Assembly: GCA_020351995.1 (NCBI GenBank)
Contig: CP070674.1
Span: 995,775 to 1,033,019, forward strand
DNA: 37,245 bases
Source: Candidatus Zixiibacteriota bacterium
GTDB lineage: Bacteria > Zixibacteria > MSB-5A5 > GN15 > FEB-12
Direction of reading: 5' to 3'
A program made the translations under genes and the position numbers. Below the pieces are notes generated by a model that saw nothing but the letters and a program-made list of their open reading frames with translations, had not been told where the DNA came from and did not search any database. Below, piece after piece: positions 29,390-32,719 of this stretch (position 1 is the first letter of the stretch; the number at the start of each line of letters is the position of its first letter).

Positions 29390-29965
29390 ATGAATAAAGA
29401 CATTCCCCAGCTCGTCCAGGACTTCTTAGACGGCGACCCGAAAGCCTTTGAGACCTTGGTTGACCGGTTTAAACGGAAAATCTACTCGTTGGCTTTTCAG
29501 GTACTCGGTAATCATCTCGACGCCGATGAGGTGGTTCAGGAGACTTTTGTAAGGGTCTATAGGAAGCGAGAGGAGCTAAAGGATGTAAAGTATTTCTCGA
29601 GTTTTATCATTCGGATTGCCACCAACTATTCGATTGATTTGCTCCGTAAGCGCCGGGGACACAGCGGGATGCCAGACGATAGCGCTTCCTTACCCGGCGG
29701 CATTCAACTCGACCTGGCCCGACGGGTGGCGACACCGAGTGAGGACTTTGAGAAGAAACGTTTGATGGAGGAAGTTTACCGGGCTCTGGAGCAGTTACCC
29801 CCCCGGCAGAAGCTGACGGCGATTCTGCACGACGTTGAGGGTTACAGCAAAGCCGAAATAGCCCGAACGTTTGATTGTCCGGAAGCCACGGTTCGCTCAA
29901 ACCTCCATATCGCTCGCACCAAGATAAAGAAAATTTTGAAACAGCGTTTAAAGTCGAAGGAGTAA
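29390..29965 (+). CDS. ECF (sigma-70 family) sigma factor
   Basis: A second 191-residue ECF factor, distinct in sequence from the one at 18758. Region 2: FETLVDRFKRKIYSLAFQVL, then GNHLDADEVVQETFVRVYRK and SSFIIRIATNYSIDLLRKRR. Region 4: LEQLPPRQKLTAILHDVEGY and KAEIARTFDCPEATVRSNLH. GAGGGGGA precedes the ATG. It is followed after two bases by an anti-sigma reading frame that is interrupted by a stop codon, so this factor may lack its brake. Its regulon is unknown. Confidence 0.95.
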   Translation: MNKDIPQLVQDFLDGDPKAFETLVDRFKRKIYSLAFQVLGNHLDADEVVQETFVRVYRKREELKDVKYFSSFIIRIATNYSIDLLRKRRGHSGMPDDSASLPGGIQLDLARRVATPSEDFEKKRLMEEVYRALEQLPPRQKLTAILHDVEGYSKAEIARTFDCPEATVRSNLHIARTKIKKILKQRLKSKE

Positions 29966-29967
29966 AA

Positions 29968-30537
29968 ATGACGTGCCATGACGCCTTGACGCTCCTTGAG
30001 GAATATGTCGATAAAGAACTCCCGCCAGACAAAGAGGCTCTCTTAACCTAACATTTTGAGGGTTGTACGGGATGTCGGGCAGAGCTTGAAGCGGCATTAC
30101 TCCTCAAGGAGTTGTTGAAATCGAATAAACCACTCGACCCCGGCGAGGCTTACTGGACCGAAACAACCAGAATCATAAAAGCCCGCACTATCGATGTCCC
30201 CGAAATAGAGACGGTCGTAACCTCTATCGCCGAGCGCGCGGCCACGCAGCGTACGGCGCTATTTCGGTCAGTCGTATCTGTAGCGGCTTCGCTGGTGGTA
30301 CTTTTCTCAGCTTTGTTACTGGGTTCTGGTCAGGAGCAAAGAATGGCGCAGATCGAAGCCTCCCGGCCACCGGTACTTTATGCAGCCTCATTAGATGAAG
30401 TGATCGGGTCCGATAACACCGTAATACTGACCCGCGAAGAAAACGCCAGAATAGCTCGGGGAATGTTGCTCATGGGAGCCCCCGGCATTCTAGGGCGGTT
30501 CGGTAATCCGTACGGCTCTGCGGCCATCGCGAACTAG
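29968..30537 (+). pseudogene. Zinc-binding (ZAS) anti-sigma factor interrupted by an in-frame TAA
   Basis: From ATG 29968 the frame reads MTCHDALTLLEEYVDKELPP and then stops at TAA 30049-30051, immediately before HFEGCTGCRAELEA. That segment supplies the H-x3-C-x2-C of a zinc-binding anti-sigma domain. The same frame continues open to 30537 through a membrane helix (SVVSVAASLVVLFSALLLG) and a short exported tail. Removing the one stop restores a normal anti-sigma factor of about 189 residues. One base change (CAA to TAA) would explain it. A restart at TTG 30112 is possible but would lack the zinc domain. Most likely a nonsense allele, less likely a sequencing error. Confidence 0.85.
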
Positions 30538-30568
30538 AACCGCCTGAACACCAAAGAGGAATGAAGCA

Positions 30569-31411
30569 TTGAGAAAGAACACCGCCATCTTGTGCCTTTG
30601 TCTCGCTGGTCTGCTCTTAACAGTATGCAACCAGGGAGACAAGAAAGTAAGCCTGCGATATAAATTCACCCCCGGGCTAAAACTCTACTACCTCGAGTCG
30701 GCTAAGACCAACGAGCGCATCATTGAGAACGGGACTATTACAGGTTCCACCGGCTACACCGTCGATTATGACATCACTATCGAATGTGTTGGTATTGTGG
30801 ATGACACTGTATTGGAGGTTTCGCAACTGGCCAGAGCCGATAGTGCTACCTTCGTCACTCCTGACTCAACCTGGACCATGGCTGTCAACTTTGCGCGGAC
30901 AACCACGGGCCGGACGTTGACCAACGGGAAACTGCTGAACATCAATCTCGATGATGCTGTGCCCGAGCATCGTCGCGCTTATATGCAGGCCTGGAACCAG
31001 CAGGGTACCGCTGTCTTCCCCAGCGGCGAACGGCCGGTCGGCTATTCATGGACCCAGACAACCACCGTCGTTCTGCCCGACGAAACCATGGAGACATCAA
31101 CTACCTACACGATCACAGCACTGGTCAGGGAATCCGGTTACGACTGCGCTGTCGTCGAGTATGAAGGACTTTTGATCTTACCCGTCCAGCCGAAGGAGGA
31201 TGACCCCGAACAGCGTCGGGGCTCCGACCGGGTCGAGGGAAGTGGAAAAATCTATTTTGCCTATGAACCCGGGTTTGTCGTAAGGCAGACTGAGAAGCGG
31301 AGAATCCAGGGCGACCGGAAAAGGAACGTGGACGGGGATACAGTGTCGTACCGTGTTGAACAAGACTATAGTGTCGTCTTCCAGCTGCAACGCAAGGAGG
31401 GCGGCTCATAA
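30569..31411 (+). CDS. Lipoprotein of unknown function
   Basis: A 280-residue protein starting at TTG 30569, with AGAGGA eight bases upstream; the ATG at 30561 meets a stop after three codons. The signal MRKNTAILCLCLAGLLLTVC ends in a lipobox Cys, so membrane anchoring is expected. The mature part is beta-rich, opening LRYKFTPGLKLYYLESAKTN and ending RVEQDYSVVFQLQRKEGG. This resembles DUF6263-type lipoproteins, but I am not sure of the family. It follows the sigma and broken anti-sigma genes by 31 bases and may belong to their operon. A terminator follows. Confidence 0.75.
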   Translation: MRKNTAILCLCLAGLLLTVCNQGDKKVSLRYKFTPGLKLYYLESAKTNERIIENGTITGSTGYTVDYDITIECVGIVDDTVLEVSQLARADSATFVTPDSTWTMAVNFARTTTGRTLTNGKLLNINLDDAVPEHRRAYMQAWNQQGTAVFPSGERPVGYSWTQTTTVVLPDETMETSTTYTITALVRESGYDCAVVEYEGLLILPVQPKEDDPEQRRGSDRVEGSGKIYFAYEPGFVVRQTEKRRIQGDRKRNVDGDTVSYRVEQDYSVVFQLQRKEGGS

Positions 31412-31534: not shown

Positions 31535-32719
31535 ATGTCCCACGGGCGTGTTATTCTAATAATTATTGACGCCTGCGGAGTGGGCGAACTTCCTGACGCC
31601 GACCAATACGGCGACAGTGGCTCAGCCACTCTGCCCAATATTGCCCGGGCCGTAGCCGGGCTGGACATGCCCACCTGCCAGAAACTTGGTCTGGGCAACA
31701 TCGTTCCTATAAAGGGCTTACCACCCGCCGAGAAGCCACTTGCCTGCTTCGGCAAAATGGCCGAGAAATCGGCCGGCAAAGACTCAACCACCGGCCACTG
31801 GGAAATCGGCGGGATAATAATGGAAAAGCCCTTCCCTCTCTTTCCGAGAGGGTTTCCGGCAGAGCTTGTCGACGAGTTTCAACAGCGAGCGGCTGTAACG
31901 GTTATCGGTAATCTCGCTGCCAGCGGCACCGAAATCATCAAACAACTGGGCGAAAGACAACTTCAGACCGGAGAGATTATTCTTTATACCTCGGCTGATT
32001 CCGTATTCCAGCTGGCCGCTCACGAGGATATCTTTCCACTTGACCGGTTATATGAAATCTGCGCGATCGCTCGCGAGATTCTAACGGGAGAGTTTGCCGT
32101 TGCCCGTGTAATCGCTCGGCCGTTCACCGGGCAGCCAGGGAGCTTCGTTAGGACCGCCGGCCGTAAGGACTTCTCCCTTCAACCACCCTCGGACACCATT
32201 CTCGACCTGATGATTGCCGGTGGCTTCGAGACACTGGCCGTCGGAAAAACCTACGATCTGTTCGCCGAACGCGGATTCACTTCCCGAATGGAAGCCAAAA
32301 GCAACGCCGAAATCTTGGAAGAAATGATTCACGCCACTAAAAGCGACACCCGACACAGCCTGATTTTCGGCAACTGCGTTGATTTTGACATGCTCTGGGG
32401 CCACCGAAATGACACCGAGAGCTTCGCTGAAGGACTGGAGCAGTTTGACCGTCATGCCGCGGAGTTACTCAAGGTCTTAAATGAAGACGACCTGCTGATA
32501 ATCACTGCCGATCATGGCTGTGACCCGACTATCAAGTCATCGACAGACCACACCCGCGAATATGTTCCCCTGCTTGTTCACGGCAAAGATATAAGTCACG
32601 GGGTGAATCTCGGAACCAGGGCGACTTTCGCCGATATCGCGTGCTCCATTGCCCATTTCTTCGATCTAAATCACCAGCTTCCCGGAACTTCATTTATGGG
32701 CAGTATAGTCCGGAGATAA
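31535..32719 (+). CDS. deoB: Phosphopentomutase
   Basis: DeoB interconverts (deoxy)ribose 1- and 5-phosphate in nucleoside salvage, using two Mn ions in an alkaline-phosphatase fold. The 394-residue protein has normal length. Metal and active-site motifs visible are VILIIIDACGVGELPDADQY, the catalytic-Thr segment AGKDSTTGHWEIGG, NCVDFDMLWGHRND and LLIITADHGCDPTIKSSTDH. deoC begins eight bases after its stop, so the two enzymes of deoxyribose 1-phosphate breakdown are co-transcribed. No nucleoside phosphorylase is present in the window. Confidence 0.97.
   Translation: MSHGRVILIIIDACGVGELPDADQYGDSGSATLPNIARAVAGLDMPTCQKLGLGNIVPIKGLPPAEKPLACFGKMAEKSAGKDSTTGHWEIGGIIMEKPFPLFPRGFPAELVDEFQQRAAVTVIGNLAASGTEIIKQLGERQLQTGEIILYTSADSVFQLAAHEDIFPLDRLYEICAIAREILTGEFAVARVIARPFTGQPGSFVRTAGRKDFSLQPPSDTILDLMIAGGFETLAVGKTYDLFAERGFTSRMEAKSNAEILEEMIHATKSDTRHSLIFGNCVDFDMLWGHRNDTESFAEGLEQFDRHAAELLKVLNEDDLLIITADHGCDPTIKSSTDHTREYVPLLVHGKDISHGVNLGTRATFADIACSIAHFFDLNHQLPGTSFMGSIVRR

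Follow-up and report, generated by a model that had tools for sequence, protein, structure and literature searches.

Introduction

In the RseA/RseB and MucA/MucB systems the genes follow the order sigma factor, membrane anti-sigma factor and exported partner, and the mucA mutations of mucoid Pseudomonas are an example of anti-sigma genes broken in nature. Natural breakage of such genes is also known from Nocardia, where several members carry a premature stop in rskA and have kept the adjacent ECF sigma gene intact (PMC7509140). As described there, the shortened RskA of Nocardia retains residues 1-81 and still inhibits SigK, the stop is common to several species, and mpt83, the third gene of the RskA/SigK system, is given as absent from those Nocardia. 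With RskA missing, SigK is described as 'low on' when studied in Yersinia, whereas the Nocardia protein is described as highly active (PMC7509140). In the account of anti-sigma domains in PMC7406223, helix 1 of the domain binds region 4 of the sigma factor and helix 4 binds region 2, while RseA is presented as not relying on a zinc motif.

Here we describe a three-gene locus from a Candidatus Zixiibacteriota bacterium, found within a window of 37,245 nucleotides (the whole stretch of DNA that was analysed; contig CP070674.1, positions 995,775 to 1,033,019). As in Nocardia, a natural premature stop in an anti-sigma gene lies beside an intact ECF sigma gene and, as in the RskA/SigK system, there is a third gene. 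There are also differences. Just 27 residues precede the stop here, so that little of the sigma-binding domain is left; the third gene, encoding a lipoprotein, is intact; and the stop is confined to this one genome. The gene order is that of the RseA/RseB and MucA/MucB systems. Unlike RseA as described, the anti-sigma factor has a zinc motif, which it shares with RsiW of Bacillus, whereas the co-encoded lipoprotein sets the locus apart from RsiW/SigW. The model of this lipoprotein aligns with RseB and MucB structures, but higher scores go to unrelated beta-barrels.

Results

Gene order

The first gene (29390-29965; plus strand, as for all features of the locus given below) encodes an intact ECF sigma factor of 191 residues with the Pfam domains Sigma70_r2 and Sigma70_r4_2. 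Its best NCBIfam match is SigW, but as the score is below the curated cut-off the protein is not filed as SigW. The ATG of the anti-sigma gene lies 2 bases past the sigma stop codon; the gene itself (29968-30537) has 190 codons including stops and is interrupted at codon 28. The third member of the cassette is a gene with a TTG start for a putative lipoprotein of 280 residues (30569-31411). Beyond it lies a gene (31535-32719) that we take to encode a phosphopentomutase-like enzyme, a name of our own since Pfam assigns it to the Metalloenzyme superfamily only. A promoter and terminator scan gave no signal clearly exceeding those of shuffled sequences.

An interrupted class I anti-sigma gene

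Translation of 29968-30537 gives 27 residues, a single TAA (30049-30051), a further 161 residues and a normal stop, with His29 coming directly after the TAA. This is the arrangement that the earlier note had described, a lone TAA immediately before the zinc-site histidine of a ZAS-type membrane anti-sigma gene, and the classification is borne out by the motif, the profile match and the fold of an orthologue. When the frame was read through with the stop as X, it matched zf-HC2 (PF13490) with a score of 29.1 bits (cut-off 22.2), and homologues were found across its whole length, the closest congener being 59.6% identical over 188 aligned residues. There are four putative zinc ligands. Cys3 (29974-29976) occupies a column that is invariant in an alignment of 25 rows; His29, Cys33 and Cys36 form the H-x3-C-x2-C motif directly behind the stop (30052-30075), which is invariant in 25/25 rows and present in 27 of 29 relatives. 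In the other two (L026 and L033) the histidine and both cysteines of the motif have been lost and the remaining protein is kept.

A hydrophobic stretch judged by eye marks a probable transmembrane helix at residues 102-120 (30271-30327), and the model of the orthologue from congener G002 has a long helix at 87-130. Near the C-terminus is the conserved motif GMLLMGAPGILGRF (30460-30501), in which Gly170, Pro172, Gly173 and Gly176 are invariant or nearly so in the 25 rows; judging from the topology it probably lies outside the inner membrane. The same motif, GMLL-G-PG-LGRF, is kept in relatives too. Residues 1-70 of the G002 orthologue were modelled with block-mean pLDDT values of 89-98, and the model matches RsiW, MucA, RslA and RskA with Z-scores of 5.5-7.5. 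RsiW, MucA and RslA tie for best, with RsiW of the Bacillus RsiW/SigW pair (PDB 5wuq) at the top (Z 7.5, 69 residues, rmsd 5.7). The zinc motif, the zf-HC2 score above the cut-off, the anti-sigma domain fold and the neighbouring ECF sigma gene are all those of class I (ZAS / zf-HC2); the reading frame, on the other hand, is interrupted by the TAA at codon 28, and the gene is classed as a broken copy of this class I zinc-motif family rather than a working member of it.

The stop is private to one genome

All 29 relatives that were aligned carry a sense codon where this genome has the TAA. Since these orthologues, in the same position behind the same sigma factor, continue past it uninterrupted, the finding is more than chance. 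In a search of 61 genomes, the window's own and 60 relatives, a match was obtained in 53, and among the matches listed only that of the window has an internal stop; when 132 genomes of the class were searched with a profile, 127 gave matches, with the same outcome among those listed. A contig scan for a second genome of the same species returned one locus, from a relative at 45% identity ('FCB group bacterium'), and near genomes are possibly absent from the set.

The earlier note had expected CAA at this codon. The column is in fact variable, with 12 residues in the 29 relatives: Glu in seven, Ser in five, Arg and Lys in four each, Asp in two and Thr, Val, Leu, Ala, Met, Gly and Gln in one each. 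Two of the three congeners have Lys there and the third has Glu. With Gln found only once in so variable a column, CAA has no special support.

The three-gene cassette

The sigma factor, membrane anti-sigma factor and lipoprotein (29390-31411 in the window) form a conserved three-gene cassette found across the family (loci L006-L034). All of 30 loci have the lipoprotein and 29 have the sigma factor, the one locus without it being cut by a contig edge. The lipoprotein was found in 45 of the 54 family genomes. A membrane-type anti-sigma factor, defined by a best E-value of 8.5e-21 or better and with genus g13 set aside, occurs in 46 of the 54; the lipoprotein is present in 45 of these 46 and in none of the other eight. 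The exception, G005, has no lipoprotein match, and its anti-sigma match is cut at residue 121. The eight genomes without a lipoprotein match and without the membrane type are G015, G018, G035, G075, G076, G079, G083 and G087, and the locus was viewed in three of them, all from genus g13 (L143 in G015, L144 in G076 and L145 in G075). In each the sigma factor is intact, and the next conserved gene is reached with no lipoprotein gene in between. G015 and G076 encode a soluble anti-sigma factor of 85 residues that has the zinc motif; G075 shows a disturbed anti-sigma frame as well. This combination of a soluble anti-sigma factor and no lipoprotein resembles that reported for Nocardia, whose rskA ends after 81 residues and which is described as lacking mpt83 (PMC7509140).

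The lipoprotein has an invariant Cys20 and a weak match, under the cut-off, to DUF6263, a family that did not occur among the matches listed in the lipoprotein and ECF literature. Its TTG start is found in 13 of the 18 loci for which a start was listed, these starts being taken from BLAST edges. The model has a beta fold (pLDDT 90.9) and aligns with lipid-binding and barrel folds; MucB, RseB and LolA score Z 9.0-9.9 but unrelated barrels reach 12.8, so an RseB-like role is put forward as a hypothesis. As the membrane half of the anti-sigma factor and the lipoprotein occur together, and are missing together in g13, their distribution points to the lipoprotein as the putative signal partner of the membrane anti-sigma factor.

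Conservation on both sides of the stop

At columns conserved in at least 90% of relatives the interrupted copy has kept 4/4 residues before the stop and 11/11 after it. At columns conserved in at least 80% the figures are 6/6 and 23/24, and at 70% conservation they are 8/8 and 32/35. The downstream half is thus intact, as had been noticed from the sequence, and the retention is about that of the congeners when each is left out in turn. Compared with congener G002 there are 0.15 nonsynonymous differences per site before the stop and 0.30 after it. The synonymous differences per site (0.76 before and 0.77 after) are near saturation, so this comparison mostly reports the long time preceding the stop. 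The post-stop half is 51.6 and 49.7% identical to those of G001 and G003, for which the G002 copy gives 54.7 and 52.2%; this slightly greater distance is too small to call decay. The neighbouring genes are also well preserved. The sigma factor is 88.5% identical to that of G002 and has kept 87 of the 89 columns conserved in at least 80% of relatives, the other two being changes of Lys to Arg and Ile to Val, and the lipoprotein gene is full length.

With both anti-sigma halves conserved the break is recent, or an error. The lack of follow-on decay in the sigma factor and lipoprotein genes fits a very recent event and fits an error equally well. Of the earlier suggestion that the break is either recent or suppressed, the first part stands with this proviso, while suppression finds no support, the stop being private and in a variable column and no tRNA with a UUA anticodon having been found among 43 matches (see below). 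It would seem probable that an ordinary class I membrane anti-sigma gene was broken recently, in this strain or population, by a single-base nonsense mutation.

A sequence error or a minority allele

If the TAA were an error of the consensus or assembly, or the allele of a minority strain, the organism would have an intact anti-sigma gene. One wrong base would be enough, and the conservation of both halves together with the lack of an interrupted orthologue among the matches listed fits such an error. The genome record is a draft made of contigs strung together by N runs, each exactly 100 long. Two of these runs (995675-995774 and from 1033020) border the window exactly, so that the window is a single contig of that draft. 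Against this, polished contigs usually carry few substitution errors, and a 400-kb sample of the sequence has no general sign of poor quality. With the genes of G002 as reference, an internal stop was found in 3 of 52 comparable genes, one of which is the anti-sigma gene; of the other two, one is apparently an antisense frame and the other a match near a contig join. With G003 as reference there was one among 19 genes, again the anti-sigma gene. On balance we regard an error or minority allele as somewhat unlikely, though it deserves serious consideration.

Restart of translation

The nearest possible restart is at two in-frame TTG codons (30112-30117) right behind an AAGGAG (30106-30111). Initiation at TTG 30112 or 30115 would open 141 or 140 codons. 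The resulting membrane piece would lack the zinc domain but might still do something, such as titrating a protease or the lipoprotein. Although the AAGGAG comes directly before these codons, the spacing to the start would be 0 or 3 bases, which is poorer than usual. The AAGGAG also encodes Lys-Glu within a Lys-Glu-Leu-Leu stretch which, at the protein level, is shared by several relatives that lack the stop, and it need therefore be no adaptation. The piece would, moreover, lack the zinc site and helix 1, the latter being a main sigma contact according to PMC7406223. Taken together these points make a functional restart improbable.

Readthrough and recoding

The earlier note had also raised a readthrough switch, in which the UAA would be read through to some degree and the efficiency of termination would set the level of the anti-sigma factor. 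While the frame behind the stop is open and conserved, and the organism probably recodes another stop, UGA, this proposal is very improbable, given that the stop is private to one genome and at a column with 12 different residues in 29 relatives, that UAA is not the selenocysteine codon, and that no UUA-anticodon tRNA was found. Conservation of the stop, as expected of programmed readthrough, was seen in 0/29 aligned relatives. A total of 43 tRNA matches were found in the genome, and ARAGORN, run on their loci, gave none with a UUA anticodon; as the set is also without a few expected tRNAs, for example tRNA-Asp and tRNA-Ile, and the assembly may be incomplete, this absence is no proof. In the literature no paper was found that combines stop codon readthrough, bacteria, UAA and anti-sigma.

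Selenocysteine or other recoding was considered and rejected, the stop being TAA and not TGA and no UUA-anticodon tRNA having been found. The recoding of UGA itself is likely, since the genome has a tRNA-Sec match over the cut-off and, on the minus strand of G000:C1 near 1212150 (L056), a HesB-like frame interrupted by a TGA within a glycine-rich stretch that is conserved. This frame, which falls below the NCBIfam cut-off, probably encodes a selenoprotein.

Genome-wide recoding of TAA and general decay were likewise rejected after a codon-usage scan of a 400-kb sample of the window's own genome (G000), which returned 23 candidate stops flanked by coding-like sequence. Ten of these were examined by eye: one was the internal TGA of the HesB-like frame, two looked like gene ends before another frame and seven appeared to lie opposite a listed frame on the other strand. 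The scan requires 30 open, coding-like codons on each side of a stop, and as it missed the anti-sigma TAA itself it is not a sensitive test.

Discussion

If the TAA is a recent nonsense mutation, as we think probable, the product of the gene would be a 27-residue stub containing only the start of the sigma-binding domain. An internal restart would add a membrane piece without the first helices of that domain, and neither the stub nor such a piece should be able to inhibit the sigma factor. Because the partner sigma factor and lipoprotein are intact, loss of inhibition is to be expected, and the combination of these two proteins with a broken inhibitor would make the sigma regulon constitutively active, in part or in full. 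Loss of function with derepression is thus the likely outcome, and its degree may differ, as does the activity described for SigK without RskA (PMC7509140); that the regulon would be always on, as the earlier note had proposed, is plausible. Polarity could also affect the later lipoprotein gene.

Were the readthrough proposal true, the efficiency of termination would be an input to an envelope-stress sigma factor, through low-level or conditional suppression. A recent nonsense mutation, if real, would instead be a natural case of inhibitor loss from a lineage that is uncultured, and could reveal what an undescribed regulon does in nature. The cassette of sigma factor, membrane anti-sigma factor and lipoprotein can be tested as a parallel to RseB/MucB and rskA/mpt83, and it is a more useful by-product of the analysis than the stop.
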